From contig JAVXUO010002227.1 in assembly GCA_033065855.1 (NCBI GenBank), positions 186,001-250,000 of the forward strand: a stretch of DNA of 64,000 nucleotides. Reading direction: 5' to 3'. The number at the start of each line of letters is the position of its first letter. Position 1 is the stretch's first letter. Origin of the DNA: Escallonia rubra. Lineage: Eukaryota > Streptophyta > Magnoliopsida > Escalloniales > Escalloniaceae. A program made the position numbers and the translations under genes. The notes under the pieces were generated by a model. That model had not been told where the DNA came from. It worked only from the letters and a program-made list of their open reading frames with translations, and ran no database searches. Below are positions 14,415 to 58,546 of the stretch, one piece after another.

Positions 14415-14550
14415 ATATGAAGCTGAATTGCGGGGCAAATCTCCTTTGGCAGTGAAGTTACTATTCTGCCTCTGTGAAAATACATTCACATCAACAACAG
14501 TATATAGTAGCCTACTGCCAATGGAGAAATTGCCCAGTAATGCATCCATA
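14415..14550 (-). ncRNA. MIR399: microRNA399 precursor, type A, unit e
   Basis: On the minus strand a long hairpin places a mature sequence on its 3' arm (14431-14451) that starts TGCCAAAGGAGATTTG and ends CCCCG, which to my knowledge equals Arabidopsis miR399d. The opposite arm (14516-14537) reads CTGGGCAATTTCTC then CATTGGCA and pairs almost fully with it. Pairing continues beyond the duplex on both sides. In known plants miR399 is loaded into Argonaute and represses PHO2/UBC24, raising phosphate uptake and transport under starvation. A TATA box and a P1BS site lie upstream (14678-14727). This is the most canonical of the four type A copies; its paired type B hairpin is lost. Confidence 0.92.
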
Positions 14551-14677
14551 CACCTCTTTCTTCTTCCGCAAGAAACGAATCGAATCAGACCGAAGGCCAG
14601 GGTCTCCACTTTTGATCACCCTAATCTTGAACTTGGCTTACTGCCTCGATGATACACTTTGAAGGCTCAACAATGAA

Positions 14678-14727
14678 TTTATAGGTCGCGAGAGAGGTCT
14701 AGTGTTCTCCAGGCAAATAGGATATCC
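14678..14727 (-). promoter_or_regulatory. TATA box and P1BS of MIR399 type A, unit e
   Basis: The minus strand has ACCTATAAAT (TATA box, about 14678-14686) and, about 40 bases further upstream, GGATATCC (14720-14727). The latter fits GNATATNC, the PHR1 binding site. The same arrangement is kept in units a, c and d. Confidence 0.75.
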
Positions 14728-14839
14728 TGAGCACATGCTTGGTTTGTAAGTTGAAGGGAATAAGCGGTTCACTTTGATCCACATTTTATTGAGAGAAGAG
14801 GGGCACAATTTGACATGTATGGGACGTGTATTGACATAC

Positions 14840-17290
14840 AAAACTGCTATACGGCAAAAAAGATGTAGTTCATAGTTAATACGAGATATATATCTCTAAC
14901 TACAAACTTAAACATAACTAGAAATGCATGATGCACTTCTCTTTTCCCTTTTTTTGGTGCAAATGCAGAAACTTTTCTCAATCCAAATAGATTTAGCTTC
15001 AGTTGAGGGTAAAGGTTGTACTCACGGTGCTGTTAGCTTCTTCCAAAGTTCTAAAGGTAGCATTGGCTTTTTCCAGGTTTTTAAGGCAATCACTTGGGCA
15101 CATTTCTTAGGCAAATACGTAGGACTATTGAAACATACGAATTTGTGCAAATTTATGCATTTTTTGTTGAGGACCTCGGGTGTGTACTGATATTTTTCTG
15201 GACATCATGTTGAAAATTGGATGACTTCGGTTTTGCAGCTATGATCGAGCACTTTACCTAACCTGAAAAATGACTACATTAACAAATATCTACAAAAATT
15301 ACACTTACGTAGAGGAATCAATTTGAGTATGGCCATTTTTTTTTTACATTTACGTGTATTAGAATCGAGATAGTAGTTTACTTTACGAGGAAACCTGAAT
15401 TCATCGAGGCATATGCACCTTCCTATCTTCTTCTGGTTTCAAATAAAAATAAGCAATATAGATAGATCAAAATTATGCAAGCTGCAAGAAGAGACAACAT
15501 AATTAAGGAACACGTTCCATGAATTAACCTTTGATAACGATCGAGGTGGTCCTAGCAGTCCTTTGCTCCTCAAAGATACAAAATCTGACAAAAGTGCTTG
15601 AAAGAGAAGCATCTAAACTCAGTGCCCCTCCTTTACGACCCAATTGATGGATAGATAGATACAACTTGCCCGAGGAAAGAAGAAAAAGAAGGCACAATCC
15701 GGAGATCCAATAGCATGTTCTTTTCTTTGTCAACGTTTTCCTCTCTGAAATGGCTGGCTGCGTGGACAATGTAGCTGTGGAACATGCACTCTTAGAAGAC
15801 TAATTGTTTGGTCACACAATTCAGTTAATTATAGTTAACCTCTCAAATCCTCTCTCACGCCCATGCAAAATTATATGTATGTGATACAGGTAGGCATCGT
15901 GAAGGCATGTTGTGCAGTGCATATATATTTTTATTCGCCTAAGACGTCGACGGCAGTACTTTTGAGCTGCACCAAGGCGTCGCCGCTAATCTGCCACCCG
16001 TGGAGGAGTCAGCACATAGTAGATTGGATGCCATGGCGGCCACGTTGCCACGAGGGATGCTATTATATAGCTGCGGCCATGTGGGATTAATGGACTATGC
16101 GAATATAGATCCCAATCTATTTGATGACTAATCATATTATTTTTTTAAAAAGAATTGGTCTGTAACATTCTTCATATAAGAACTGTAGTGTGATTCTTCA
16201 TTTGATGACTACCCGTTTGTTTTTTTTTACTAATGTGCTATTGCATGTGTATTTTTTTCCTTTTTTTTTTGTTCATAAAGATGTGCATATTTGGATTTGA
16301 TATCCAAGTACAACTTTATTTGAATGTTAAACTTAAATTTGCTAACCAAACAATAAAGTTGAGTTATTATATATATAATCTTTAAAGTAGCATCTTTTTA
16401 ACAAATTTGGAAATATGAAAAATGAATATAACGAATTTGCTAACCAAACAAAGTTTCGCCTTGCAATTTTCCTTCCATAACACGAACAACAATAATGACC
16501 AAACATTTGAAATGGAATAGCTTAAAATCCTTTGCTACCTTAAATCTATACCATTTTTGATTGGGATTGTTAAGGGAATATAGGTCATTATTTTGGATTT
16601 CGATTTACTAGACAGTTCAAGATTAAAATTGTTCAATAAAGAAAAATAGAATTAAAAAAGTCATACCAAACTAAAATAAGCCTTTGTAAAGCAATTTATA
16701 TGCAGTAGCATATAAATAAGTAATTGACGTGGGAGCCGATATGTACAATCCCACATGGAGAAAATAACAATTGACATTTTAGCATTTGCGCTCTGTGAGC
16801 TTCTCCCCTTTTTGTAAAGTCTGAAGAAAAGAGAGAAATACACGGAGGTTTCACGTGCTCCACATAAGTGTTTTGTCTTGGTGGAGCAACTTCCTCTCAC
16901 CACCTTCTCGATCAGGGACAAAAAAACCGTCGCTAAAGCTTTTAGTTCCATCCGTAGTAGTACAAGCGCCAATTAGTTTTAGTGACTCTTTTTCTTGTCG
17001 CTGAAAATCGGAGGTGGAGGAAGCTTTTTATCAACTAGGCTTGAAGCAAAAACTTATGTTTCGTATAAGCATCTTGACGTGGCTATAATACGAACTTGAC
17101 TTTATGAATGGAAAAGGGACGTTGGAGGGAATTTGACTTTTGTGCTATAATACGAACTTGAACAGAAGAATCCTGCCATACGAATTTCTTGCAACATGAC
17201 AAAATATATGATATGTCATCTTGTGTACGTAAAAAAGCATCTAAATCTCAAAAGAGAAAAGGTGATTTGTCCTTGATCTTGAATAAGAGA
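14840..17290. other. Intergenic, no gene recognised
   Basis: AT-rich sequence without a recognised gene. A region near 16925-17020 has CCGTCGCTAAAG / TTGTCGCTGAAA motifs of small plant MITEs. By analogy with the later units, part of this stretch would be the shared interval between the type A and type B microRNA promoters, now diverged beyond recognition by eye. Confidence 0.35.
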
Positions 17291-17304
17291 CTGGTCGAGA
17301 AAGT

Positions 17305-17400
17305 TGGTACCATCAGGAATTTTCCCAGCATATGCCACTCTTCTTGGGGGTATATCCAATTGGAGTGGCGAGCAAAATAGGATTTAAAGTACTTTTTCGG
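17305..17400 (+). promoter_or_regulatory. Decayed MIR399 type B promoter, unit e
   Basis: CCCAGCATATGCCACTCTTC, followed by GTATATCC, aligns with the promoter block found upstream of all four type B hairpins (CCAGCATATGCCACTCC then GCATATCC). Two PHR1-type sites survive: GCATATGC at 17328-17335 and GTATATCC at 17350-17357. Weak similarity continues about 50 bases further. No miR399 hairpin follows, so this is the remnant of a lost fifth type B gene. It lies 2.9 kb from the type A hairpin of this unit. Confidence 0.55.
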
Positions 17401-17629
17401 TTTTATGCGAAGAATTGTACGTGGTTCTTTCACAATCGATCCATCAACGATTTCATGGAAGATGGATTTGGTCGGCTAGACGACAAACATTATAAATTTC
17501 TTTGAATAAAAAGCTAACCTAACCTACATGCGCAAAAAAGTCGCGTAATATGCATAAGGACCATTCGAAATTTTCTGTTTGGATGAAAATGTCGTATAGG
17601 AGTAGTTTCTTTCCTTTTAGGATGGTAGG

Positions 17630-17915
17630 CAGATTCGCGTACAATCCAGTTCTAGTCCAGCTCTAGTCCAGTCCCCAATTCTATTATAGTCTAATTCCCA
17701 GTTCAATTCGAGTTCCAGTCTTATTCCAGTCCCAATTCCAACCCAGTCTCCAGTCTCCAGTCTCCAGTCCAGTTCCAGCTCAGTCTGAGTCTCGGTTCCA
17801 ATCTTCATTCAGTTCCTGCAGATTAATCTCAGTCTTGGCGGTGCCAGTTTCAGTTCCAATCCCAATCCCGCCCTACTCCCAGTTGCAGTCTAGTCCCAGC
17901 CTCAGTCCAGTTGAC
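17630..17915. repeat. Degenerate CCAGT-type minisatellite
   Basis: About 280 bases composed of variants of TCCAGTTC / CCAGTCTCCAGTCC, including three adjacent TCTCCAG units near 17750-17770. A minus-strand open frame here only encodes repeated Leu/Glu/Gly-Asp-Trp motifs and is not a gene. Confidence 0.75.
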
Positions 17916-18004
17916 ATAACCACAGAAATTTCTGTTCATCCTCTCTAGCAGCAAGTAAAAATTGCATTGCCTTGATTGTCATTTAAGATATGAGGTTGTA
18001 CAAG

Positions 18005-18315
18005 GAAATCCAAAAGTTTTTGTGTGCTCTACGTGTTTCGTGGGCTGCGTGCTTGCATAATCTCTGTCTCTGATAATTTTGCATGCCTTTTTGTCTTGCA
18101 TGCTTGCGTAGCCTCTGCTTTGATAATTTTGTGTGCTTTGCCTGCTTGTGTGTCTTGAATACTTATCCCTTCAATAGTTTTTCTGGCTTATTTGTGGTGT
18201 GCCTAGCTCTCAGATGATGTGTGCTTGCATGCTTCGGTTTTGTGTGCTTATGTGCTTTGATTTCGCGTGTCTTGCGTGTTGGCATGCTTTAATTTTGCGT
18301 GCTTATGTGCTATGA
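18005..18315. repeat. Degenerate TGTGCTTGCATGCTT-type repeat
   Basis: Variants of TTTTGCGTGCTTATGTGCTT recur irregularly every 20-50 bases. It is non-coding and low in complexity. Confidence 0.6.
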
Positions 18316-18936
18316 CAATTGGAAGTTGAGTCTCCTGAGTTGTGAAGTAACTCGACCGATTGAATTAGTCTAGATTATTGCCTTCAGATTCAGCCTAAAA
18401 TTCTCTCCATATGGAAGGAGTTAGGATTAGAAAGCCTGGGTAATAACCACACGTCATGTCATTAAATGTGAAACCTCTCGTCTAAGAGCTAAACGGTTTA
18501 TGAATCCAAGCTCCAAAATAACATTACTGTGTTTGTCAATGCAGAGATGAAGATCTAACAACACGGTTTAAAAGGAATAGATATAGGAACTGATGGCTCA
18601 AAAGATCCGCGGATTATCCCCCCAAACTGGTGAATAAACTAGATTCAAGATAGAGCAAGTATGAACACTTTTCCGAAGGAAAAAAAAAAAAAAAGAATAT
18701 ATTGTTTTGGCGCTCCGTGATGGCGTTGATTCTTTAAATTGTGGATTGTAAATTCTGCAAAAGATTTTGTAACCCGCTATTTATCCAAAGTTCAAAGTTC
18801 TGGATGGAAATTTGAATTATAAGAAAACGAGCAACTATCAGAAGTTTCAGTTGAAACACTCGAACTTTCACTCGACATGGAGGACTTCGGACATGCTAGT
18901 TATGACAAGGTCAAAGCGTGGGCACTTTTGGAAAGA

Positions 18937-19160
18937 TAATTTTTTGCTACTATCCGGGTTGTAAGAAGAAGCCTATAACTTTTCATATAGCAATAATTAT
19001 TGGTCTCTAAACATGCTTAGTCACACTTTTATTAATACCTGCAGTGACAATTTCAAGAACAGTTCTTTTAGCATTACTAAATAAATGTTACTAAAAATAT
19101 AGGATGACCGGTAATTATCGATATACATGAAGTAGTAGAGGCAAAAGAACTTCTCCAAGG
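18937..19160. mobile_element. MITE-like inverted repeat, second copy
   Basis: Left arm with TATAGCAATAATTATTGGTC and right arm (reverse complement) with TATCGATAATTACCGGTC, plus looser outer matches. The pattern resembles the MITE at 861-1095 but is more diverged. Confidence 0.45.
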
Positions 19161-20750
19161 AAACTTTGACTTTAGTGGAAAGTTCTAGTAATTCCATTCA
19201 TGAGTTCCACAATATCTGAAAATTCAATTTCAAGAGTTTTTCAAAGAATTCATGATAGGGCGAAACTGGTCCTTGAAAGCCTGTTTGATAGTTACTGCTA
19301 ACGAGTCACGAACCCTTCCCAGCTCCGTCAATGGTGGAGGGAATACCAATCGAGAGAAAGCTCGTCGGTAATGAAGAAGCAATTTTTTATTTTTAAGAGC
19401 ATGTTATTATTAATTTTTTAAGCTTGTCCGAACTCTCGTTTGTGCTAATTAGTGATATTTAATCGGTAGCAGAAATTTTGCAACAATTAGCAACGGCGAC
19501 CGGAGAAGTATAAGAGGGTGTCAATAGCTGCTCTCTTTCATTAATACTGACACTAGTAAGTAAAAGTTCGACTTCCAGAATTTTGAGATCTTGTCAAGGG
19601 CAGTTCCCACAGGGAGCCATTTTTGTTACGATAGGAACAGATTTGTCGCTAGAGAGTAGCGACTGATTTCAGCAGCAGATGCATCCTTGTCAGCAACAAA
19701 TTTCAAAGATTTGCTTGTTCATTTTTTTCGTCAATATTGAAATGTGAAACATTATCCTTGATTAAAAAAAATAAAAAAATACTAATTATCGCGTAACTTG
19801 CCATCAATAACTCCAGGAAAGGTAACAAATTAAATTCCAAAATTTATATAGACATTGAGGATTAATTATTCTCGGAGCCTCCAAATGAACATCACTTTAG
19901 GTAACTACTTAAACAAAATAAAGCAATAAAGTCCTTGGGATTTTCGCATTATTTTCTCCCTCAAGGACAGAACAGTAGTTATGGTTCTACTCAAGGCTCG
20001 ACAAATGATATTCATACATACTCAAATTGCACGATTATAAGAGCATCACAAATTTTATTTGCTACATATTTGCGGTGTAAAGTATTTCAAAACCACGGGA
20101 AAAAAAAGGATTACAAGTCCATGCCTTAACAAGTTGTCTCGAAGGCTTAAACAGCGCGGTTTAGACTTGATTACTAATGATAAACGACGTGGTTCGGCCC
20201 CCCGTCATAGGTAAAATTTTAAGGTATATCAATACATTAAACGCTATTGTAAATCTCAAAATTTCGCAAACGATCAAATTCTGAAACAAGTTCTTGAAGA
20301 ACAAGGAATTTTTTTTAAAAAAGATAGATATTCTGAACTTTAGCTCATGAAAACCAACTTGGAAATTTCAACCCAAAGATTGGAAAGTTTCTGAAATTGC
20401 CTAAAACCGTGTGGTCCTCAACTTCGTACTCATTGAAAGACGTGCAATTGTAATGCTGTAAGTTGTTCATCGTCATCTATGGCGGATTGACGGAGGTACT
20501 GTTGAAGCCTAATTGTTGTCATCATTTCGGATGACAGTGGTGGAGCATCAACAATTCCAAAATGAACAGAATAGCACATCATATCCAGAAAGGCAAACAA
20601 AAGTTTGCGCAGACAAATGAGGGATAAAATCAAGAAAATTGCCTACAATATCACATATAGAGGCTATTGTTTTCCAAATTCTTCAGTGGGTACATTGCCC
20701 ATCACTCGTCCTCACGTAGATCCGCCTTTGCCTGCATTGGTTTTTTTTCT
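19160..20750. other. Intergenic, no gene recognised
   Basis: No protein or RNA gene is recognised on either strand. Confidence 0.35.
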
Positions 20751-20865
20751 TAGTTTCATGCTTCCTTGTTCTCCAAGAATTACTGTTCTCGAGCCATATA
20801 CATAGAATGAAGAACTCAGGATACTAGGATAGAGCAGCTAGCTTCTTGTCTGCAAGGGTGCATGT

Positions 20866-20897
<32 letters not shown>

Positions 20898-21337
20898 TGT
20901 TGGCAAGGTGGGCGGCGACTGGTGGCAATTAGGGCTATGGTGGCTCTTGTAGCTAGTGCACACATTAGATTTAGAGTTAGGGTCAGGTTGATGACGAGGG
21001 AAAGAGAGATGCAAGATCTCCCGTACGTTACAGACAATTAATCTCATTTACATGCATAATTTCCTTGCTAAAGGAGGAGCACACAAGATTTTTTCTGGAC
21101 TTGACATGGCTGTGCATGCAAAAAATGGTAAAGAGTATTGTCAATATTTGGAGACAAGTGAAATACTTTTGACAGAGAGTTCTGTTGGTTTGGTGTACAG
21201 CTTATAAAAGGAAAAAAAAACTACACAACTGAACATGAGCATATTACACGGTTTGTACGGGAATTCTGTTAAACCAAAGGATCAGTATTACCTGCTTGGA
21301 GTCCAATTGGAGGATGTCAAGGTGACTTATAACTGTA

Positions 21338-21452
21338 CATTCTGCATTGCAGAGCAAATCTCCTTTGGCAGTGAACTAGTATCTGCTTAATCACCTTGGA
21401 GCAGTTGAAAGGCCAACTGCCAAAGGAGTATTTGCCCAGTAATGCATCCATA
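21338..21452 (-). ncRNA. MIR399: microRNA399 precursor, type A, unit a
   Basis: Minus-strand hairpin. The 3' arm (21350-21370) starts TGCCAAAGGAGATTTG and ends CTCTG, differing from canonical miR399 at position 18 (U for C). The 5' arm (complement of 21418-21439) starts CTGGGCAAATACTCC and pairs with a single-base bulge. The minus strand is preferred because this arm is identical in units a, c and d while the opposite arm drifts, and because the TATA/P1BS promoter lies on the minus-strand upstream side. The predicted role is PHO2/UBC24 silencing. The plus strand could also fold, giving a near-miR399 sequence with one extra base. Confidence 0.85.
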
Positions 21453-21579: not shown

Positions 21580-21627
21580 TTATAGGCGTCACAATGGTCC
21601 GGAATTTTCCGTGCAAATAGCATATTC
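21580..21627 (-). promoter_or_regulatory. TATA box and P1BS of MIR399 type A, unit a
   Basis: Minus strand: GCCTATAA (21580-21587), and upstream of it a P1BS match whose plus-strand reading is GCATATTC (21620-21627). Position and spacing equal those in units c, d and e. Confidence 0.7.
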
Positions 21628-23604: not shown

Positions 23605-23670
23605 GCATATGCCACTCCATTCTTCAGCATATCCAAAATCAAGGTGCGAACCAACTAGTATATGAAGAGC
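23605..23670 (+). promoter_or_regulatory. Double P1BS and TATA of MIR399 type B, unit a
   Basis: GCATATGC (23605-23612) and GCATATCC (23627-23634), spaced 22 bases start to start, both fit GNATATNC. A TATA-like GTATATGAA follows at 23658-23666, about 80 bases before the hairpin. The block is conserved in units b, c and d. Confidence 0.75.
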
Positions 23671-23729: not shown

Positions 23730-23826
23730 TTTGCGGAATAACAGGGCAGTCCTACTTTGGCAAGGGAACCATATGCACATGCATACCAGTCTTTGCCAAA
23801 GGAGAATTGCCCTGCAATTCACTCCC
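23730..23826 (+). ncRNA. MIR399: microRNA399 precursor, type B, unit a
   Basis: Plus-strand hairpin with the mature sequence on the 3' arm (23794-23814), starting TGCCAAAGGAGAATTG and ending CCCTG, a known miR399 variant with A at position 13. The 5' arm (23742-23762) reads CAGGGCAGTCCTACTT then TGGCA. The loop is about 30 bases and contains CATATGCACATGCATACC. Pairing extends outward through GGAATAA and TTCACTCC. Compared with units c and d this copy has GGG instead of GTG in the star arm, which improves pairing. It is divergent from the type A hairpin 2.4 kb to the left. Confidence 0.95.
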
Positions 23827-24639: not shown

Positions 24640-25270
24640 TTTTGGCCATAGTTGACATACTTAAACCGGCCAGTAAACCCCATAAACTGACCGGTAAATC
24701 AGTTGAACTGGCTAGTGAGGGTAACTTAGACCTGTTAGCCTATTTTGGTTTTATCTCTTGGGAATGAGAGGCTCGACCAAATGGTCTCCTCTATCTTTTC
24801 CACTGCCCCAGACCTCGATAAAAAGGCCCTCTGGGGATGCTTCCAAACACAGCGAAAGTTAGGGAGAGGAAACGCTGCAGAGGCCTTGAGAGAGAAATAG
24901 AAAAAAATAATGTTTCCAATCATTTTTTCATTGCATCGTGCAGCTTGTTGAGCCTTTCAATCGATTGTTCAAAACCAACCAAGTCAAGAGGTAATTCCAT
25001 CTTCCATTCATTACGTGTTTTTAGAATAGATAGAGTTTTAGAAGCGTCTCCCATCCCCGTGACCCGATTTTGGTTTAAAAGGATAAAAGACAAAAAAAAT
25101 GAAGTAGAGTTCTAATGTAGTATTTTAGTAGCATTAAAATTCTACTAGAGTTAGACTTCTTTTTCAATTAGAATTCTAAGACAATTAGAAGTGTTAGTTG
25201 GAAGAATGCTAAGAACAATCGGCCGGAAGAAGTTGGGTTTATTTAGGTCTCGAGGAAATAAGACTGGAAT
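24640..25270. repeat. LTR-like repeat, partial copy
   Basis: Matches 37350-38040: AACCGGCCAGTAAA-type motifs, then CCAAATGGTCTCCTCTATC, CCACTGCCCCAGACCTC, a TATA-like GATAAAAAGG, a GA-rich stretch and a shared 3' part with TAGAGTTAGACTTCTTTTT. A promoter-like block inside a dispersed repeat suggests an LTR, but no coding region, primer site or paired LTR is visible. Confidence 0.5.
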
Positions 25271-25763
25271 TTAGGTCGCTTCCTATAGGGTCATTCAAGC
25301 AGTGATGGTTTTGATCCTAATAGTTAGGTTAGGTACGTAGGCCACTCGACCCCCAATCTTGAGTTCAAACCAAACTTAGGTTTAGTTTAAGTTGTTATCG
25401 TGCACCGTTTAGGTTTGTTATCGTGCACTGTTTTGTGTTTTTTGTATTTAGGATAAAAATATAAAGTCACAATAAACAAGTTAGAGATTATTAGGGCACG
25501 ACTGAGATACTTCAAAAAATTCAACTATGTATCCAGCTAACATCCATTCATCAAGACTTAGCAAGGCTTTTGTGAATTTGGTTAGAACGTAGTGATTATA
25601 AACTTACTTGTATACCATAACATGCAAAAGTATACAATATGCAGATTCTACCTATGGCAGACAAATGTAATAGGTCTCTTAGCAGACAAATTATTCTGAT
25701 CTAACATACAAACAATATCCCTTATCTCGGAAATAAGTGGTCTGCAATTACTTGGCAAACACA

Positions 25764-26640
25764 TTAAACATGCAAATAATTTTGAACTAGTATAAGATTA
25801 AGGTTCATCTTTAACAATTCATCATCAACATTATTCTTAGAAGCATTGTTGAAACTAATACTCATTAACTTGTTCTCTTTTTTGAAGTTCGTACATGCTC
25901 TTCGTATAATATCAGCAACAACAGATGCATCATGTGGATATGGAAACATTTCGAAGTCAATGATTTCTTGTGTAAAACCTAGTCTGCATCAACCCAATAA
26001 GCCGTAAGACAACAATATCTAAGAATATTAAGAGATCTCTAAACACCAGAAGTAAGACTAGCTTTACCATCAAAGTTTTTAAAATAATTACCGTTGTTCA
26101 GCGGCATTATATTATTTTAGTGCATCAGACTTAGTAGTCTTTCTATGAACATTTTTATACAAAGGTTGCACATGATTATTCATATATCTTCACCTCCGAG
26201 GATTGTTAAAGGGTTCTCGTATACAGCTACTGTCGTTCGATAAAGATAGAATCTCCATCTCCGGTTGAGGAAAAAAGAAAAATTCCATTATGAGGTGAAT
26301 GACTTCCTTGAAAGAAGTCCGAGCCGGGTTACACTTTTTACCATCGGCAAAGTTGAACATTCTTCATTGTACACAATAAGTTCTTTAAGACCGTCTCTTT
26401 GCTGTCACTGACTATAAATATATACTTACTTAAAAAAAGATAATGGTGTTTTGCTACATCAATATGACCTTGTCTAGATTTACATTGAAATTAAGATGAG
26501 AATTACCACTACCATGTGAAAAAAACTTGAAACAATATTTACATTGAGCTTTGGATACTTTATAAACCATAACCTTTGTAAAATGATCCCAACAGTTAGC
26601 TTTTATTTTTCTTTCCGTCTTTTAGACTTTATACCCAGTG
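25764..26640 (-). pseudogene. hAT transposase with BED zinc finger, decayed
   Basis: Reading the minus strand, a BED-type zinc-finger remnant (KAQCKYCFKFFSHGSGNSHLN, near 26460-26580) is followed about 500 bases later by a transposase core remnant LTAYWVDAD, a stop, then VLHKK. After a frameshift comes IDFEMFPYPHDAS with NKLMSISFNNASKNN. These resemble the start of the catalytic region of plant RICESLEEPER-like hAT transposases. Frameshifts and stops make it inactive. The element seems to run from about 25.3 to 27.3 kb; its GC-rich terminal part is at about 27120-27320. A second relic of the same family is at 55370-55760. Confidence 0.7.
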
Positions 26641-27808
26641 GTGATTGTACTAGAAGGCTTTTTGCGGTGCTCATAGTGGTTGACATTTTTAGTTACGTAA
26701 TTTTGATGGTCTTGAAGTAGACAGTTTTTTAAATGTTTCAAAGAAAAAAATACAAAACTGGTAAGATGAATAAAGTAGTAAAAGAATTACAGTGATAAAT
26801 AATATGAAATATCTTTTAAGCTAAAAGCTATCGATCAATAATTAAAAAAAGCTTGTAATTGAAAAATTGAGAAGGTTAGTAATGAATACGAACGCACAAC
26901 AAAGCTCGTAGATAAGGGACAATTGTGAATTGTAGTTGAGGTGTGAAGAATAGTGAAGAGAATGAGTCAATTTATAGTTTTTTCAAGCCCAGAAAAGATC
27001 AAAATGCTCCTAAAACTAGGTGTTTAGAGTTGTTGGAAAAGGTAAATATATAAAAATGCACAAAAAGGTTGTGTGGAATAAGCCTTTGACCTCAAAGGCT
27101 TTGAGGATTCAAATGTTTTAGTAGCCGGGGCCAAGCCGGGCTTGTGCTTGATAAGGGGCCTGGTGGTGGCGGGCTAATACAGGCTAGGCCAATTTTTTTT
27201 TTTTTGGAAACAATTTGGTCCAGCCCCGCTCTAGGCCCTTCTAGCCTGGCCTGCACTATACATGGTGTGGGTGGGGCCGACCCGGACTTTCTTTGGGCTG
27301 GCCCTTTTGACAACTCCAATTTTTCCCCTTAATTTCATGCTTCCTTGTTCTCCAAGAATGACTATTCTCCGGCTTATATACATATAATTAGGAACTTAGG
27401 ATAGATGAGCTAGCTTTTTGTCCACAAGGGAGGTGTGTGTGTGTGTGTGTGGGGGGGGGGGGGGGAGGAGAGGTATGGCAATGGGGCGGGTTGGATGCGG
27501 ATCTTATGAAATCTGTACTAGGCCCGTTAGTCCTAAAACCCCGCCCGCCCTGTCACTAGGGGTGAGCAACGAACCGTTCAAACCGAGTCGAACCGTGCAA
27601 ACTGAACTGATCGAATCCGGACCGTTAATAAGCTTGAATGGTTTGAGTTCAAAATTTCAAACTGAGGCCGATTCGGTTCACGGTTCAGAAATTCCAAACC
27701 GGCACTGAACCAAACCGAACCGAACCGCGATGGCTTATATTATCCTTAAAAAATGCTATACCTTACCTTGGTTAGCTGAATATACCCTAGTTACTCTACT
27801 ATATATAC

Positions 27809-29312
27809 TAGGGGTGAGCACGGTTCGGTTTGGTTCGGTTTAGGGGTCAAACCGTAAACCGAACCAATGGACCTCGGTTCACAAATTCTCAAACCAAACC
27901 AAACCATGACACCTCGGTTTGAACGGTTCGGTTTGAACGGTTCAATCGGTTTAAATTAAACGGTTCGGATCGGTTTGAGGTAGTTTAAACATAATATGTC
28001 AGTAATATGCATCCTTTTACATATATCTTTTCAAGCAATTCAACAAAACAACTTTCCCATGTCATAATTTTCATATATGGACTCAGATTTGGTAGGTTAC
28101 TGACGACCAACAGGTAATCAAACAACTCCTTTTCCCTGGAAAAGGCTACACAATGGCTACTCTTAAACATCTAATCTCCCTCATTATTTTAACAGCATGC
28201 AAAATGGTATTCTCTTAATTAACTGACTTTTTAACAGGGCTCAGCTGTTCAAGCTGTTCAAGTTAAGAATGTGGTGTACGAGAACATAAAAGGAACAAGT
28301 GCTTCTGATGTGGCTAACTGGCTATAAAGTTTGATTGCAGTAAGAGCTTCCCCTGTCAGGGAATTGTCTTGGAAGAAATAAACATGGTAAGACAAGGTGG
28401 TAAAGCAGCAAAAGCTGTGTGCAGCAACTTACTGTTATTGTTGCATTTTTGCGAGCATGGCTAAACAATAGACATTGATGTAAGTAATTTATTTGATACA
28501 CCGAAAACCTAAAAAACTAGAATGAAAATTAGAACTCACCTGCTCAAATTTCAGAAGCCGAAGAGAGTGCAATTGGATCCAAGAAATTGAAGAAACACGA
28601 TCTGGGCAGGAAACTTAATCTGGGCAGTGACCTTGATCTGGAATTTTGGGAATGAAATTGGAATCTGGGCAGCAACTTTAAGGCTTGATCTTCCCAAATA
28701 TTGGCCACGGCTGAGATCGCGATCGCAATCTAAGAAGAAACCCGTGGGCACTGGGCAGTGATCTTCATCCGTGGGCTTGTGTCATGAACCCAGCTGCGAT
28801 GCAGGATGAGCTCGAAGGAGAAGCCCCCCACAACAGAGCACCGACTGCGTCTGCTGCGACCGCTGATATCTTCTTCCCCTCTCTAATCAGATGATTATTC
28901 TCTATCTCATCAACAATGGCAGCTGCAGCAGTAGTGTCTCTGATCGGATGGTGCGTTGTCGAAGAGTGGAAGAGTGAACCGTGAAGTTTGAAGTCTCTGA
29001 AGTTTGAAGACTTCAGCTGCAGCAGTAAAGAATTGCGGCTGAAGTCTATGAAGTTTGAAGAATGAAAATAGATTTTTAGGGTAAGGTATATAATATATAT
29101 ATATATATATTTTTTAATTCCTATATACCCTCGGTTCGGTTCGGTTCAGTAACGGTTTGGAAATCTTGAACCGTGAACCGAACCGAACCGGCCTCGGTTC
29201 GGAAAATCTCAATCCAAACCGTTCAATCTCATCAACGGTCCGGATTCGATCGGTTCGGTTCCATCGGTTTGAGCGGTTCGGATCGGTTTCATCGGTTCAC
29301 TGCTCACCCCTA
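27809..29312. mobile_element. Inner hAT element, same family, inverted
   Basis: Begins TAGGGGTGAGCACGGTTCGG and ends TGCTCACCCCTA. Duplications ATATATAC (27801-27808) and ATATGTAC (29313-29320) agree at 7 of 8. Its left end matches the right end of the surrounding element and vice versa, so it inserted in the opposite orientation. It carries a polygalacturonase exon fragment (28238-28431). Confidence 0.88.
28238..28431 (+). pseudogene. Polygalacturonase (GH28) exon fragment
   Basis: After a splice-acceptor-like AACAG the sequence encodes SAVQAVQVKNVVYENIKGTS ASDVA, then, past an 8-bp insertion that shifts the frame, IKFDCSKSFPCQGIVLEEIN MVRQGG and KAAKAVCSN. This is the C-terminal region of plant pectin-degrading polygalacturonases, downstream of the catalytic motifs. 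Those motifs are absent, so no enzyme can result. The insertion consists of TGTGGCTA followed by ACTGGCTA (28309-28324), a near-duplication like a hAT excision footprint. The fragment sits inside a non-autonomous hAT element and was probably captured from a host gene. Confidence 0.8.
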
Positions 29313-30040
29313 ATATGTACCTTGTCCTTTTGCTCTAGTTAATAGTTTTCTCACTTCATTTACCCTAATTTATTTCATTTTCAACCTACTCTTCTTCAGC
29401 CGCCCCACTTTCAGGTTCATACATCAGCAGCCCCATCTTACTCAATACCCAAATCTGGATACGTAGAGAAACATATCTTGAAGGACCTGGGGTTGGAATT
29501 TTGGATACATAGATAAACTAGTTTCTTCCTAGATCAACTTGTTTTGCCATCCAAAGTAAGGCCTGCCGTCTGAAATCAAATTGTTGCTATCTTTCTCCTG
29601 GACCTGCCTCACCATTTCTCCTTCAAGGTTAGCTAGTTTCTGGAAATGAAAAAGCTTCAAGGTTATAGATAGTTTGGTGGAAAATCTTTACTAGCCACCC
29701 GGATTTTAAGTAGTATTCAATGAATACTACTTATATATTCACAATAGATCAGTAGGGCACTCTAGGAAGAAGACAAAGTAGTGCAATGAAGGCTATTTTC
29801 TCACCTTCCTTTGATTTGTAACTGGTTCTGTAAGCTCTTTCCTCCACTAACACTCCCTTTGGGAAAGAGGAAACGGATTTTGAAGAGGAAGGACCGACAC
29901 TAAATTGGTTTATCTTTAGAACTTATCATTGTAATGTAACTTTTACTTGTTGGCTTGATTAGTGTTTTCAATTTATCACGAAATTCAATTGTAATGTAAC
30001 TTTGGTTTAGTGGACTTTTATTTTTCTTTGAAAGAAAATA

Positions 30041-31269
30041 GGGTTAATTTTATGCTACACCCCGTACTTAGGGGTCAGTTACACCCAGCACCTTATGGTT
30101 TTAATTTTGGCACCCAGCACCAAAATTTTGAAAAATCTTGGCACCCAGCACCAGATGACGGTCAAGAGGCACTTTGACCACACGTCTGTTAATTTTTCAG
30201 GGGCAAAATAATCTTATTGCCCCTTAAAGCATACATGTCATCCAGTCAGCTACACATGGCCTAATTGGGCTCTCCACGTCACCAGCTCTGGACTTCTGGT
30301 CTCTAAACTCTCACCCACAGCATCTCCCAATCAACAATGGGTTGCTGTCTTAGCACCACGCCCCCCAAAACAAACCACCCACATTCCATCCCTTCGACCC
30401 ACCACCACCACCATTTGCCTAAATCTGGCTCCGATGGCAGAGACCCACCACCTCCACCGCCAATACTGGAGGAAGAGACCGTGAAAGAAGTCCTCTCGGA
30501 AACCCCCATCCCAAAATCACCAACATCGGTACTAGCAGACAGCACCAAACGGCCCAGAGTCCAAGAACCCAAGGTTGAATCACTGGCTCCGCCAAATTCG
30601 ATGGACGAGACCGTCTCTGAGGTCTCTGAGATCTGCAGCTTCAGCGGCAGCTTCTCGACTACAACGGTGACCGAGGTGAGGGACGACGACGACGGAGAAA
30701 TGACCCAAAGGGTCCGTAAGTCTCCCGTAAAGATCCCGAGAAAATGGCCGTACTCCGGCGAACTCCCCAGAACAACAGAGAGGGGAGCCCGGTCTCCGGT
30801 CAGAAGGTCGGCTCCATCGCCGGTCCTGGCGAGGACAGTGACAGGTCAGCGGTGGAATGCGGGGCTGGCTAATGGCATCCAGCGGGATCCCAGCGAAAGA
30901 TGAATCCAGGTAACGGTACTGTGATAGGCTCCGTCGGCTCCATCTCCCTGCGAATCGCCGATCGATATGCCCCTCGAATAAACAGTTGGGAAATTTTGTA
31001 ATTGGGGATTAATTGAGGGATATGTGGAAGGAGAGAGAGAATAAGGGCTGTTGGAGGGAAATGACGTGGACAGCCAATTGGCCATGTGTCACTAACTGGG
31101 ATGACATGTAAGCTTTAGGGGCAATAATCCCATTTTACCCCTGAAAAACTAACAGTCGTCTAGTCAACAGGCAGTTTGACCGTCATTTGGTGTTGGGTGC
31201 CAATTTTAAAACCCCAGGGTACTGGGTGTAACTGACCCCTAAGTATAGGGTGCTGGGTAAAATTAACCT
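30041..31269. mobile_element. Pack-MULE with open reading frame
   Basis: Perfect 9-bp target duplications AAGAAAATA (30032-30040 and 31270-31278) flank long inverted repeats (about 30041-30247 and 31090-31269). These begin GGGTTAATTTTA and, on the other strand, AGGTTAATTTTA, and share TACTTAGGGGTCAGTTACAC. The left repeat holds one extra internal duplication of GGCACCCAGCACCA. The interior is a GC-rich plant gene fragment with a leader and a 188-codon frame. There is no transposase. The insertion is in the middle hAT element. Confidence 0.92.
30337..30903 (+). CDS. Captured MGCC-type plant protein fragment (188 aa)
   Basis: Open from an ATG 90 bases inside the unique part of the Pack-MULE. 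It starts MGCCLSTTPP, a likely N-myristoylation and palmitoylation signal. It continues with a His run, a Pro run (PPPPPP), VKEVLSETPIPK, a Ser/Glu segment (SEVSEICSFSGSFSTTTVTE), an acidic DDDD, and a basic RKSPVKIPRKWPYSGELPR followed by RSPVRRSAPSP. This composition and order resemble the N-terminal part of a plant-specific Ser/Arg/Pro-rich family whose members begin MGCC and have no assigned function. The frame ends shortly after GLANGIQRDPSER, where relatives would continue, and ATCCAGGTAACG just downstream looks like a splice donor, so the element probably captured exon 1. Whether it is transcribed is unknown. Confidence 0.5.
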   Translation: MGCCLSTTPPKTNHPHSIPSTHHHHHLPKSGSDGRDPPPPPPILEEETVKEVLSETPIPKSPTSVLADSTKRPRVQEPKVESLAPPNSMDETVSEVSEICSFSGSFSTTTVTEVRDDDDGEMTQRVRKSPVKIPRKWPYSGELPRTTERGARSPVRRSAPSPVLARTVTGQRWNAGLANGIQRDPSER

Positions 31270-31458
31270 AAGAAAATAATGTTTAAACGATGCCCAAACC
31301 AATCCGAACCGTTAATTTGAACCGTTTAAACCGTTCAAATCGAGGTGTATTGGTTCGGTTTGGTTCAAGAATTTGTGAACCGAGGTTCATTGGTTTGGTT
31401 TGCGGTTTAGCCCCCAAAACCGAACCAAACCGAACCGTGTTCACCCCTACTTGTCACT

Positions 31459-33140: not shown

Positions 33141-33205
33141 GCATATGCCACTCCGTTCTTCAGCATATCCAAAATCAAGGTGCAAGCCGACTAGTACATG
33201 AAGAG
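33141..33205 (+). promoter_or_regulatory. Double P1BS of MIR399 type B, unit b
   Basis: GCATATGC (33141-33148) and GCATATCC (33163-33170), spacing identical to units a and c. The TATA-like motif of the other units reads GTACATGAA here, a weaker match. Confidence 0.7.
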
Positions 33206-33265
33206 CTTTTTGGTTTCCTCTGAAGATTATTCGAGCATGGTTGTTTGAATAAAGGCAGATGTGGG

Positions 33266-33386
33266 TTAGAGGAATAACAGTGCAGGTCCTCCTTTGGCAA
33301 GGGAACTATAAAGGCAGATGTGGGTTAGAGGAATAACAGTGCAGTCCAGTCTTTGCCAAAGGAGAATTGCCCTGCAATTTACTCCC
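33266..33386 (+). ncRNA. MIR399: microRNA399 precursor, type B, unit b (enlarged loop)
   Basis: The mature arm (33354-33374) starts TGCCAAAGGAGAATTG and ends CCCTG, identical to the other B copies. The star arm lies at 33278-33299 (CAGTGCAGGTCC then TCCTTTGGCA, one extra G). A 35-bp block (33251-33285) has been copied into the loop (33310-33344), replacing the usual CATATGCACATGC loop and lengthening it to about 54 bases. The copied block brings a second partial star arm (CAGTGCAGTCC), so alternative folds are possible. The mature sequence is intact, but processing may differ. Confidence 0.85.
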
Positions 33387-38045: not shown

Positions 38046-38462
38046 AGTTGAGTACCATTTGCCCTCATTAGTCCATTACACTTTTGAAGTCTGTCCGATT
38101 TACTTTGTATTGTCTCTGCAAGAGAAAATTCCATTTTAGTTTTTTGTTTTGTTTAATGTTCTTAGCAGTTTAAATTCTTACCGCAGGAAGGTTAATAAGG
38201 GATCGACTGCCTTTTACATGTTGATGGACTTGACATGGCTGTCCAAGCAAAAAGTGGTAATAATCATTGTCAAATATTTGGAGTTACATCAATTCTATTG
38301 GCAGAGTTTTCTCCTGTTGGTTTGGTGTACTGCATATTAAACAAAGAAACTACACAGCTAAACATGACATATTAGGGTTTGTACGTGAATTATGTTAAAC
38401 CAAAGAATCAATGTTACCTGCTTGAAGTCCAATTGGAGGATTCAAGGTGACTTATAACTGTA

Positions 38463-38585
38463 TATTCTGCATTGCAGAGCAAATCTCCTTTGGCAGTGAA
38501 CTACTATCTGCTTGTGAAGTTAATCACCTTGGAGCAGTTGAAAGGCCAACTGACAAAGGAGTAATTGCCCAGTAATGCATCCATA
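38463..38585 (-). ncRNA. MIR399: microRNA399 precursor, type A, unit c
   Basis: The minus-strand mature arm (38475-38495) is identical to unit a (starts TGCCAAAGGAGATTTG, ends CTCTG). The opposite arm (38551-38572) has changed by one base in the seed-paired part (TGACAAAGG instead of TGCCAAAGG on the plus strand), creating one mismatch in the duplex. The hairpin is otherwise complete, with a loop region of about 55 bases. The promoter with P1BS is retained. Role as for the other copies: predicted silencing of PHO2/UBC24 under phosphate starvation. Confidence 0.85.
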
Positions 38586-38709: not shown

Positions 38710-38759
38710 CATATAGGGCATTACAATGGTCCAGAATTTTCCGTGCAAATAGCATATTC
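38710..38759 (-). promoter_or_regulatory. TATA-like box and P1BS of MIR399 type A, unit c
   Basis: Minus strand: CCTATATG at 38710-38717 (weaker TATA than in units d and e). The P1BS reads GCATATTC on the plus strand at 38752-38759. Confidence 0.65.
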
Positions 38760-40144: not shown

Positions 40145-40205
40145 GCATATGCCACTCCATTCTTCAGCATATCCAAAATCAAGGTGCGAACCAACTAGTA
40201 TATGA
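40145..40205 (+). promoter_or_regulatory. Double P1BS and TATA of MIR399 type B, unit c
   Basis: GCATATGC (40145-40152) and GCATATCC (40167-40174) with the same 22-base spacing as in units a and b. TATA-like GTATATGAA is at about 40198-40206. Confidence 0.75.
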
Positions 40206-40269: not shown

Positions 40270-40366
40270 TTTGAGGAATAACAGTGCAGTCCTCCTTTGG
40301 CAAGGGAACCATATGCACATGCATACCAGTCTTTGCCAAAGGAGAATTGCCCTGCAATTCACTCCC
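40270..40366 (+). ncRNA. MIR399: microRNA399 precursor, type B, unit c
   Basis: Plus-strand hairpin. The mature arm (40334-40354) starts TGCCAAAGGAGAATTG and ends CCCTG. The star arm (40282-40302) is CAGTGCAGTCCTCCTT then TGGCA, the arrangement typical of miR399 stars. Loop CATATGCACATGCATACC as in unit a. It looks like the least altered type B copy. The downstream transcript region contains a CAG-GTAAG junction (40533-40540) that may be a splice site. Confidence 0.95.
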
Positions 40367-45966: not shown

Positions 45967-45970
<4 letters not shown>

Positions 45971-49657: not shown

Positions 49658-49666
49658 TATAATTTT

Positions 49667-51468: not shown

Positions 51469-51518
<50 letters not shown>

Positions 51519-52730: not shown

Positions 52731-52734
52731 TACG

Positions 52735-54063: not shown

Positions 54064-54094
<31 letters not shown>

Positions 54095-54430: not shown

Positions 54431-54574
54431 GACAGTTTTACCTCTAAATTAACAAACTTGGATTGACATATGCTAATAGAATGACTTGATTGAAATGAAT
54501 TTGATGTCTAGTGCCCAAAGTTGAATATGCCTAATATTACAGTGGTCAACCGAATAGTTAACTAAAATTTTAAA

Positions 54575-55029
54575 TATCAAGCACATCTAGTAGAAAGCTT
54601 GTTTTAGAGGTTTCATTGGATGTTCATGTGAGTTCTCTTTTAAAGTTTGTCTTTGAATTTTTGATGTGTTCATTGACATATTAGTTGATCATACATTAAT
54701 TCTTTATATTGCATCTTAATTGTTTTATAGGCTACAATTCCTGATCGTGTTGTCGTCTAAGTGTGCTTCTGATCACGAATCAGACTCCTCGAGTATTAAT
54801 TAAAGGCAATAAAGTTTGTGGTGTAATACACCTATGGGCCGCGAATAAGAAGAAATGGCTTATACGTGACACCAACTTGCATGCATGTTCCATGATGGGA
54901 TTATCCTCATCCTCTACTACACACAAACATAGACCGAACTTGTGGGAAGAGTTTGACCTAATATGGTTGCCCGCCCTACAAAAGCCGTGGCAAAATGGAT
55001 GTCTAAGCATCAAGTACAAGTATGTCCAT
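54575..55029. repeat. Dispersed repeat, copy of 36480-37005
   Basis: Matches the segment downstream of the transposon gene remnant at 35.5-36.5 kb, starting ATCAAGCACATCTAGTAGAA. It is followed, as there, by the LTR-like repeat. Confidence 0.55.
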
Positions 55030-55335
55030 ATTCACCCCAATTTTTGTAGGTTTATTTTACATATTTACTTGGTAGTTATTGGGCTTATTTTTAGCTAGAA
55101 TTTAATTGTTATTTTTGTATGAGGCCTAGTAATAGATAATAATTTTAATCTAACTAATTGAGTCCAGTTCAATTATCGGTCCAGTAAATCTAGTCTAGTT
55201 AGTAGTTTGGTCCAGTTAATTATTACAGTTATTCTAGACTTAACCCAAGTTAGAGTCTAGATAGGATATGCGGTTAAAGGTCTGATTTGGATGAGATTTA
55301 TTAAAAAAAAATCAAAGTCTGACTTTACCATATTG
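55030..55335. repeat. LTR-like repeat, left part only
   Basis: Matches 37015-37310 (TTTTTGTAGGTTTA, GGTCCAGT motifs, GGTTAAAGGTCTGATTTGGA), then stops where a decayed hAT element begins. Confidence 0.5.
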
Positions 55336-55369
55336 GGAGATCTCCAAACAACATAATTATGATTAATTT

Positions 55370-55760
55370 TACCATCAAAGTTTTCAAAATATTTAATTAA
55401 CAGTTGTATAGTGGCATTGTATTGTTTTAATGCATCAGACTTAGTAGTCTTTCTATGAACCTTTTATACAAAGGTTGCATATGATTCTTTATTGGGCACA
55501 ATAAGTTCGGCAAAACTGTCTCTTTGCTATCACTGGTTATAAATACATAATTTGTTGTCAAAAGATAATGGTGTTTGACTACATCAATATGGCCTTGTTA
55601 AGATGCATATTGGAAGAAATTCCTGCTAAGATGTAAACTATCACTACCATGCGGAAACAACTTGAAACAATATTTACATTAAGCTTTGGATACTTCATCA
55701 ACCATAACCTTTGTAAAATGATCCCAACATTTACTTTTCAGTTTTATATCCGTCCTTTGG
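55370..55760 (-). pseudogene. hAT transposase BED zinc-finger remnant
   Basis: The minus strand has KCWDHFTKVMVDEVSKA, a stop, CKYCFKLFPHGSD and, further on, QGHIDVVKHHYLLTTNYVFI and SDSKETVLPNLL. This corresponds to the zinc-finger part of the relic at 25764-26640, of which the catalytic part is missing here. The containing element probably runs to about 56660, just before unit d. Confidence 0.6.
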
Positions 55761-57152
55761 CCTTCTGGCGGACTTTAGATAATATTGCTTGGTCCATCCT
55801 CTCCACGACCACTGATCGAGTTAAGAGTGTACATAGCAGTATTAGTGTTGCCTGCTGAACTGGATGCTTGATTGAAGTGTTGTTGATCTTGTGAAGGTGT
55901 AGATTGAAAATCAGGAATATTTTGGTTAAATGCCAAGGAACTTTAGGTGTCTATACCAGTAATTTGGTTAAATGTCAAGGAACTTTAGGTGTATATACCA
56001 GTGGTGATTACTCTTGAAGGTTTTTTTTTTTAATGTGGTGCTCGTCATGGTGGACGTTTTTTAATGTGTGATTTTGATGGTCTTGGAGTAGACATACTTT
56101 TTATAATATTTGAATGAAAAAATTACAAAACTGGTAAGAATAATTAAATAGTAAAAGAACTAATCTAATAAAGAATAGTTTTAGAGCTAAAAGTTATCAA
56201 CTAACAATTAAAGAAAGCTTATGATTAGTTGAGAGGGTTAGTAACGAATAAGAATGCACAAGAAATCTTGTAGATAAGAGAGAGTTGTGAATTATAGTTG
56301 AGGTGTGAAGAATGTAAAGAGCATGAGTCAATTTATAGATTTTTCTAGTCGCAAAAGACCAAAATATCCCTAAAATAGCTGTTTATCGTTATTGGGAAGT
56401 GTAAATATGTAAAAGTGTATAAAAAAGCGGTGTAGAATAAGTTTGTACAAAAGTACTCTTCAAACCGGCTATTATATAGCGGTTGGAAGGGTGAAAATGT
56501 CATTCATTTCTACAAAGATGGCCGTTTTGGGGGAAGGGTGAAATTCAAAATTTAAATGTTTTATCGAGCCCGGCCATGCTAGGCTTGGGCTTGATAATGG
56601 GCTGGGCCATGGCGTGCCTAAACGAGCCGGGCTCTTCTTTGTGAAAATGTTTCGTCCGCGGCCCCCGGGGGGCGGGGGGTAGGAGGAGGAGGAGGGGGAG
56701 AGAGGGAGGTGGCAAAGTGTGCGGTGAGTTGCGGCAATTAGGGTTGTGGTGGCTCTGGTAGCTATTGCACACATTAGAGTTAGGTTAGGGTCAGGTTGAG
56801 GACAAAAGGAAAGAGAGAAGCAAGATCTCAGGTAGGTTGCTGACATTTAATTTCATTAACATCAATAATTTCCTTGCTAAAGGAAGAGAGCACCAGGATT
56901 GAAGTTGCCATAGAACACAAAGAAAAAGGCATAATGTGCTTGTGGGAGCGAACGTGAGGATTCTTGAACATCAATTAGCATCAGGATTATTATTTGCCCT
57001 CATTAGAGTGTTTGGTGTACTGCATATTAAACAAAGAAACTACACAGCTGAACATGAGCATATTAGGGTGTGTACGTGAATTATGTCAAACAAAGGATCA
57101 ATGTTACCTGCTTGGAGTCCAATTGGAGGATATCAAGGTGACTTATAACTGT

Positions 57153-57275
57153 ATATCTGCAATGCAGAGCAAATCTCCTTTGGCAGTGAACTACTATCTG
57201 CTTGTGAAGTTAATCACCTTGGAGCAGTTGAAAGGCCAACAGACAAAGGAGATTTGGTCAGTAATGCATCCATAC
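57153..57275 (-). ncRNA. MIR399: microRNA399 precursor, type A, unit d (eroding star arm)
   Basis: The minus-strand mature arm (57165-57185) is unchanged (starts TGCCAAAGGAGATTTG, ends CTCTG). The opposite arm (57241-57261) reads AGACAAAGGAGATTTGGTCA on the plus strand, with several mismatches to the mature arm where units a and c have fewer or one. The fold should be weaker, so this copy may be losing processing. The TATA box and P1BS upstream are nevertheless the best preserved among the duplicated A copies. Confidence 0.78.
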
Positions 57276-57400
57276 ACTAGACCAAAGCTACCTGTTTGCT
57301 CCAGATCGCAGAATTATAATATCGAGAAACCCTTCCTAAGGATTTGGGGACCTAACATCCCTCATCGCATTGATGAACAGTTATGATGCTCCAAACTCAT

Positions 57401-57448
57401 TTATAGGCGTCACAATGGTCCGGAATTTTCCGTGCAAATAGGATATCC
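57401..57448 (-). promoter_or_regulatory. TATA box and P1BS of MIR399 type A, unit d
   Basis: Minus strand: GCCTATAAATG (TATA, ending at 57408) and palindromic GGATATCC (57441-57448), as in unit e. Confidence 0.75.
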
Positions 57449-58324
57449 TGGGCACATCCTCTATTCCGAAGTTTAGACAGTGGTCCATTCTGATCCACAG
57501 AACTTCAACGTGAAATTTGTGAACGGTTTTCCTTGACTACGACAATTCTGTTCTCTTTTATCGTTGTCCCTTGAGCAAGTATCATGCATATGCATTTGAA
57601 ACCATCTTTTATCGTTGTCCCGAGAGTTAAACCTTCAACAACAGTATAATATGGCCTTCTGATCTTCAAAGAGACGCTAAAACTTAATGGAGAAAAGCAT
57701 CTTAACTTGGTGGCTCACTTTTACTTCCAAATGAACTAAAGGTAGTTTGACAGAACCAGAATAATTGGAAATTACAGGAACATCACCTCGCAAATATTTA
57801 ATAGCAGTTTTCTGTATTTATCTATCACTCAGTCTCAAGTTTTATGCGTTGTGTATTTGTGGATTTGTGTGACAAACTCGAAGCTGCATCTCTTTCTTAG
57901 GGGTTTGTAATGGAACCTTTTACATACTCTAGTGTTCAAGAGGCAGAATAAGCAACAGTAATTGCAGTATTAAGAAAGACGTACATAATCTTAACATCGT
58001 TCATGAATTAACTCTACTATAAGTACTACTTAACACCACACTAATATTTGAATCTTGGACATGCTGAACCATAGACCATTATCTCATTAGTTGTATAGGA
58101 TATGGTTGGTTAATCTTAAGATTATTACGATTTCAATCTGTGTGGTAATATCCATATTCAATCATATATGCATGTACTTTTTCCCAAGTCACAATATCTT
58201 GGACATGCGGAAAGGTCACTAGAAGTGGAGAGCAATGTCCATCGCCTTTCATAAAGGAAAAATGGTGAGAGAAATGGGGACCCCATGCATGAAAAAGGGT
58301 GTAATCTCTATTGGAATTATGCCA

Positions 58325-58390
58325 GCTTATGCCACTCCATTCTTCAGCATATCCAAAATCAAGGTGCGAACCAACGAATATATGAAGAAC
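58325..58390 (+). promoter_or_regulatory. Single P1BS and TATA of MIR399 type B, unit d
   Basis: Only GCATATCC (58347-58354) fits GNATATNC. The first site of the pair is mutated to GCTTATGC (58325-58332). TATA-like ATATATGAA follows at about 58378-58386. Confidence 0.7.
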
Positions 58391-58449
58391 TTTTTGGTTT
58401 CCTCTGAAGATCATTCGAGCATGGATGTTTGAAAGAAGGCATATATGGG

Positions 58450-58546
58450 TTTGAGGAATAACAGTGCAGTCCTTCTTTGGCAAGGGAACCACATGCACAT
58501 GCATACCAGTCTTTGCCAAAGGAGAATTGCCCTGCAATTCACTCCC
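58450..58546 (+). ncRNA. MIR399: microRNA399 precursor, type B, unit d
   Basis: The mature arm (58514-58534) starts TGCCAAAGGAGAATTG and ends CCCTG. The star arm (58462-58482) is CAGTGCAGTCCTTCTT then TGGCA, one base different from unit c and still paired by G-U. Loop CACATGCACATGCATACC. The hairpin is intact although one upstream P1BS is lost. The splice-like junction downstream has lost its AG (58711-58717, GCGGGTAAG). Confidence 0.94.

Follow-up and report, generated by a model that had tools for sequence, protein, structure and literature searches.

MIR399 families differ in size among plants, with 11 members counted in rice, 6 in Arabidopsis, 2 in tomato, 6 in sweet orange and 9 in grape (PMC10931670). 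The nine grapevine genes are placed on four chromosomes, with members a, d, e, f and h on chromosome 10 (PMC2831844, PMC10931670). As to clustering, one survey names miR399 among the clustered families in one place but omits it from the four that it lists elsewhere (PMC2358906), and another gives only four opposite-strand clusters within 1 kilobase (kb) for all families of Arabidopsis, poplar and rice combined (PMC2812943). In Arabidopsis, PHO2 is described with five miR399 sites in its 5' untranslated region (PMC2268993). Here we describe an array of MIR399 genes in Escallonia rubra. The window, by which we mean the whole stretch of 64,000 nucleotides (nt) analyzed, is C1947:186001-250000, part of a contig of 442,872 base pairs (bp; JAVXUO010002227.1, here C1947), and contains no N. 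Genome-wide searches covered 566,129,122 bases in 3222 contigs. A sequence-only reading of the window had claimed eight MIR399 precursors that arose by local duplication, share their flanks and keep every mature arm intact, which it took to suggest selection for dosage. Positions given without a contig name are those of the window.

The locus resembles these systems in several respects. The mature sequence of its plus-strand (B) genes is identical to that given for vvi-miR399a/h, the mature sequence of three minus-strand genes (A2, A4 and A5) differs from vvi-miR399d in the last two letters only, and several grapevine members likewise share one chromosome (PMC2831844, PMC10931670). Whereas grape has nine genes over four chromosomes, we found 12 in one 65.7-kb array and three further loci. 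The closely spaced copies of one family also recall the MIR399 clusters of Arabidopsis and rice (PMC2358906, PMC2812943), but here a divergent pair repeats and the spacing is wider. Titles and abstract openings in the open-access literature gave no head-to-head MIR399 array, which does not show that none exists; one paper containing both "MIR399" and "head-to-head" concerns the origin of hairpins (PMC5383695). The MIR399 family, MIR399 clusters and both main isoforms (that of A2, A4 and A5 but for two letters) are already known. What we add is the layout, in which divergent pairs recur and each gene has a P1BS, and the visible birth and death of copies. With roughly 85% probability, the locus appears to be a locally duplicated array of functional-looking MIR399 genes, in which the copied unit is a divergent A/B pair and each gene has its own P1BS promoter.

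We found mature miR399 sequences exactly where the sequence-only reading had put its eight hairpins, on the minus strand at 14431, 21350, 38475 and 57165 and on the plus strand at 23794, 33354, 40334 and 58514. Minus-strand genes are called A and plus-strand genes B, numbered by unit, and C6 and C7 lie to the right of the window (Table 1). A 19-nt mature pattern with at most three mismatches matched the window 11 times (expected number 0.02), and the three extra matches were star arms of the same hairpins on the opposite strand. Seven of the eight hairpins passed the 57-bit cut-off of Rfam model RF00445, with scores from 80.4 to 59.2 bits, and A2, whose stem is nearly symmetrical, was detected on both strands. 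Upon folding, all eight gave stem-loops with the mature sequence on the 3' arm and paired with the 5' arm. No more than three of positions 1-19 were left unpaired, and the asymmetry never exceeded one, in agreement with the plant microRNA criteria, which call for a duplex with few mismatches. Fold-energy z-scores were computed against 200 dinucleotide shuffles (Table 1); those of C6, C7, B6 and B7 ranged from -3.3 to -6.5. We conclude that the window precursors are credible MIR399 genes.

The mature letters are specific to the class of gene: position 13 is T, A or C, position 18 is C or T, and position 9 is changed in C6 and C7. In the latter two (C1947:251126-251242 and 261282-261398) the mature sequence has an A at position 9, which is paired in the stem. 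This A mismatches the PHO2 sites described below, next to the expected cleavage position, and C6 and C7 may silence PHO2 poorly or be directed at a different target. In B3, a 59-bp tandem duplication (33249-33363, found with Tandem Repeats Finder) has added a second stretch of 5'-arm sequence to the loop, and the stem still forms.

The array extends beyond the right edge of the window. Twelve MIR399 hairpins span C1947:200421-266146, 11 of them above the Rfam cut-off, and the additional pairs C6/B6 and C7/B7 are divergent like those inside; the count of eight is therefore an edge effect. The genes recur as head-to-head pairs, in which the minus strand carries the A-type member and the plus strand the B-type member. 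Within the window these are A2/B2, A4/B4 and A5/B5, with gaps of 2282, 1689 and 1180 nt, and outside it the gaps are 4498 nt (C6/B6) and 4653 nt (C7/B7). In self-comparison the units recur in the same order and orientation with common flanks, as in a tandem array, and the three window pairs sit inside repeated blocks. Local duplication, as had been proposed, is thus supported by the duplicated flanks and blocks. The claim of shared flanks stands for A2, A4 and A5 and for B2-B5, whose common flanks extend 0.5-1.9 kb at 77-91% identity, and fails for A1, whose similarity to the other copies is confined to the hairpin (131 nt, 73-78%) and a small piece of the promoter, leaving the tandem pattern weak for unit 1. 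By sequence, the window would comprise five units in which ten genes would be expected and eight are present, unit 1 being drawn from short matches alone. Units 6 and 7 resemble the window units at the hairpins only. An assembly artefact, or haplotype copies placed end to end, could be suspected from units 6 and 7, which are 93% alike across their main 3.8-kb block. Their other blocks, however, are 77-93% alike, and the window units are only 77-91% alike over their main blocks, carry different insertions and lie on one contig without N in the window, so that we regard this explanation as very improbable.

The arrangement of promoter motifs bears on how these genes would be transcribed. We searched for P1BS (GNATATNC), the PHR1 site. 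The window contains 25 P1BS against 14.75 expected, a count reached by 1 of 100 shuffles. By motif presence, a P1BS lies within 500 nt upstream of each of the 12 array hairpins, compared with a chance of 0.146 at a random position, although the 12 cases come from related copies and amount to few independent observations. The distance depends on the class: 177-180 nt for A genes, 97-98 for C6 and C7, 100 and 125 for B6 and B7, and 105 for B2-B5, three of which have a second site at 127 nt. We also found a TATA-like motif between P1BS and hairpin in 9/12 genes; B3, B6 and B7 had none by the motifs used. Hairpins of one family at one locus might instead belong to a polycistronic cluster, in which one transcript is cut into several hairpins, as described for rice miR395 (PMC2773440). 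Judged from the layout, the locus lacks the single strand, short spacing and single promoter of such a cluster: the two members of a pair are read from opposite strands and separated by 1.2-4.7 kb, and every hairpin has a P1BS to itself, mostly followed by the TATA-like motif. A shared transcript is hardly credible here.

Conservation among the copies was assessed by alignment, with column shuffles that assume independent columns. In the alignment of B2-B5 (pairwise identity 83-87%), the longest invariant run has 34 columns and spans the mature arm, a length reached by 0 of 5000 shuffles, and the next longest, of 28 columns, covers a P1BS block. Because such a run persists in copies only 83-87% alike, purifying selection on the B-copy mature arm is supported. 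We considered gene conversion among the B2-B5 hairpins as a source of the invariance and rejected it as unlikely, since their star arms and flanks differ. In A2, A4 and A5 the longest run (31 columns) also spans the mature sequence, and 796 of 5000 shuffles equalled it, which is not significant. The claim of selection is thus supported for the B class. For units 6 and 7 the situation is different. Identical runs of 318 and 258 nt, against a longest of 182 nt in 2000 shuffles, together with further runs covering the B promoter and hairpin, make gene conversion between these units likely, and the identity of B6 and B7 therefore says little about selection.

These data also bear on the idea that the copies are redundant and drift without any dosage role, the mature sequence being invariant because the copies share an ancestor and have had little time to diverge. 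The A-copy run, which does not exceed chance, would fit it, and so would the decay seen across the array: unit 3 lacks an A gene, one B promoter lacks a hairpin, the A5 star arm has diverged, two stems are halved and position 9 has changed. The long invariant run over the mature arm of B copies that are otherwise only 83-87% alike, and the second run over the P1BS block, argue against it. We consider redundancy by itself a rather unlikely account. Dosage selection is one of several possible reasons for keeping the copies, and the data do not separate it from redundancy or from isoform or tissue specialization.

Two units in the window are incomplete. In unit 1 the A gene is kept, and a relict B-type promoter lies 2.8 kb beyond the A1 hairpin, its two P1BS spaced as in B2-B4. 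By blastn it is 85-88% identical to the B promoters over 33-34 nt (E 1e-4 to 7e-4) and 71% over a longer match of about 90 nt (E 0.002-0.009). Behind it, we found no mature-like match with six or fewer mismatches in 14516-21350 and no Rfam match. A hidden hairpin was considered and dismissed: the lone star-like match in 17300-20700, at 20513, has eight mismatches and is not credible. In unit 3, pieces of the left flank and the B gene are kept, the A gene is missing, and unmatched sequence continues to about 32.35 kb. Where this A gene would be expected, there is instead a stretch rich in repeats, among them inverted repeats that interleave (27557-27723/29312-29131 and 27809-27995/31449-31276). 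Its ends read AGGGGTGAGCA... and ...TTCACCCCTA, and it is bordered by CTGTCACT on one side and, after one further base, by TTGTCACT on the other; these flanks are 7/8 alike and are perhaps a target duplication. The stretch may resemble hAT elements. An open frame of 198 residues (30307-30900), which contains a start MGCC, lies inside it, has no Pfam match and is possibly a captured gene.

Further copies in decay lie outside the window. Units 6 and 7 each contain, between the C and the B gene, a mature-like sequence without an Rfam match (C1947:254308 and 264637, TGCCAAAGGAGATTTTCTC). Each forms half a stem, with positions 1-14 paired except position 3 (z -0.6 and -1.0), and they are perhaps decayed A genes. 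The claim that every copy keeps an intact mature arm is thus true of the eight in the window and not of the array beyond it, where two copies have the position-9 change and two are half-stems. Nor is the window set complete, given the unit without an A gene and the B-type promoter without a hairpin.

Table 1. Hairpins, promoter elements and remnants of the MIR399 array, in window coordinates.
Feature	Positions	Strand	Details
MIR399 hairpin A1	14421..14547	-	mature 14431-14451, TTTGCCCCG isoform; Rfam 80.4 bits; z -5.6
P1BS GGATATCC, A1	14720..14727	-	180 nt upstream of A1; TATA-like CTATAAA at 137
Relict B-type promoter	17314..17403	+	P1BS 17328 and 17350, 22 nt apart
MIR399 hairpin A2	21340..21449	-	mature 21350-21370, TTTGCTCTG isoform; Rfam 77.3 bits; z -4.5
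P1BS GAATATGC, A2	21620..21627	-	178 nt upstream of A2
P1BS pair, B2	23605..23634	+	127 and 105 nt upstream
MIR399 hairpin B2	23732..23824	+	mature 23794-23814, AATTGCCCTG isoform; Rfam 59.2 bits; z -4.5
Unit 3 left flank	24655..27489	.	segments homologous to the left flanks of A4, A5 and A2: 24655-25272 to 37421-38049; 26025-27082 to 55330-56441 (three pieces); 27320-27489 to 20741-20915
Repeat-rich stretch	27557..31452	.	interleaved inverted repeats at the expected site of the unit 3 A gene
P1BS pair, B3	33141..33170	+	127 and 105 nt upstream
MIR399 hairpin B3	33268..33384	+	loop enlarged by 59-bp tandem duplication; Rfam 64.6 bits; z -1.3
MIR399 hairpin A4	38465..38582	-	Rfam 65.2 bits; z -2.9
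P1BS, A4	38752..38759	-	177 nt upstream
P1BS pair, B4	40145..40174	+	127 and 105 nt upstream
MIR399 hairpin B4	40272..40364	+	Rfam 64.4 bits; z -4.7
MIR399 hairpin A5	57155..57271	-	Rfam 43.5 bits, below cut-off; z -2.3
P1BS GGATATCC, A5	57441..57448	-	177 nt upstream
P1BS, B5	58347..58354	+	105 nt upstream; partner site 58325 is now GCTTATGC, which departs from the motif
MIR399 hairpin B5	58452..58544	+	Rfam 61.0 bits; z -4.6

We also searched the rest of the genome for MIR399 genes and their partners. Outside the array are three MIR399-like loci below the Rfam cut-off, on C2365 (44.9 bits), C2322 (36.1) and C2064 (32.1), in a search that scored 45 of 24,950 candidates and that diverged members may escape; their stems are clear (z -4.9, -6.5 and -3.8, respectively). 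The mature pattern with at most one mismatch occurs at 21 places in the genome, comprising 14 in the array, these three loci and four target sites. The latter belong to a group of five miR399 sites spanning C3174:238415-238875. Downstream of this group is a frame of 503 residues in which three UBE2O-type domains were recognized (best E 1.4e-41), followed farther along by a UQ_con (ubiquitin-conjugating) exon. By its domain content and resemblance, we take this gene to be PHO2/UBC24. Pairing with the A1 isoform over positions 1-19 is seen in four of the sites, and the first (C3174:238415) has extra letters between two pairing blocks, somewhat as in a mimic. From the Arabidopsis PHO2 sites, we had expected an A-type TTTGCTC isoform to fit a GAGCAAAT site; this was dropped for PHO2, as GGGCAAAT is the sequence of the four standard sites here and A1 is the isoform that suits them best.

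A 19-nt pattern modeled on the IPS1 motif had one exact match in the genome, at C2312:184978, which reads GGGCAACTTCAATCCTTTGGCA and has a P1BS 297 nt and a TATA motif 274 nt upstream. With up to two mismatches the pattern occurs at 135 places compared with 35 for a reversed control, and the exact match alone means much. We regard C2312:184978 as a candidate IPS1/At4-like target mimic. Within the window, the target-site and mimic patterns matched only complements or star arms of the hairpins. The genome would accordingly hold the parts of the PHR1-miR399-PHO2-IPS1 module, namely a P1BS for each array gene, a five-site PHO2 and a candidate mimic. We saw no difference in kind from that module, apart from the extra letters between blocks in the first PHO2 site.

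The same sites allow us to weigh the hypothesis that A-, B- and C-type mature sequences are kept for different pairing with PHO2 sites or with other targets. The variation by class at positions 13, 18 and 9, with position 9 of C6 and C7 paired in the stem, is what it would predict. On the four standard PHO2 sites, however, a simple scoring of our own gave penalties of 1-1.5 for A1 (the best), 2.0 for A2, A4 and A5 and 2.5 for B, so differences on PHO2 are small, and such a division of labor seems unlikely.

Several observations weigh against a duplicated array of functional genes. The folding of B3 barely beats shuffles, 20 of 200 being equally low (z -1.3). A5 scores 43.5 of the required 57 bits (E 1e-6), its star arm has diverged, three of its mature positions 1-19 are unpaired, and 4 of 200 shuffles fold as low. 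To these are added the A-copy run that is not significant and the two of three dispersed loci (C2322 and C2064) that lack a P1BS within 600 nt upstream; C2365 has one. In addition, trees cannot fully test unit-wise duplication: the branch leading to A1 is long, the branching among B2-B5 is unsettled, and one fork joins A1 to the B genes with modest support (80/81). Finally, given the decayed mature-like sequences between their C and B genes, the pairs of units 6 and 7 may differ from the window unit.

The duplicated array suggests the following model. Under low phosphate, PHR1-type factors would bind each P1BS, and each gene would be transcribed separately rather than as part of one polycistron. 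DCL1-type processing would yield miR399, which would silence PHO2 through the five sites upstream of its frame, and the IPS1-like mimic would buffer miR399. Pairs would be born by local duplication and decay through insertion, deletion and loss of the stem, with surviving copies holding the mature arm under purifying selection.

A Pfam scan of 20 of the 65 listed reading frames of the window gave five matches: one DUF1685 protein frame (3367-4209, minus strand), the sole ordinary protein family among the frames scanned, and four reverse-transcriptase-type fragments (zf-RVT, RVT_3) at 42047-42325, 59824-60393, 60810-61091 and 13269-13601, the one at 59824 below the curated cut-off. Those at 42047, 59824 and 60810 fall in the flank common to units 4 and 5, and their insertion is therefore probably older than the split of these units.

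Tentatively, we propose that the divergent A/B pair is an ancient unit that was duplicated and kept as a pair, and that the array may be the genome's main starvation-responsive source of miR399. As pairs are gained and lost, the number of copies and the mixture of isoforms would be adjusted, and two parts, the promoter element and the mature arm, would stay conserved. The presence of both isoforms on one grape chromosome is consistent with the pair being old. The comparison of paralogues alone points to the mature arm and the P1BS block as the two constrained parts. If the plant draws its miR399 mainly from this array, one locus would set the strength of the long-distance phosphate signal, and the copies would offer a natural series in which to ask which elements are needed: intact hairpins, an enlarged loop, a weakened star arm, half a stem and a promoter that lacks its hairpin.

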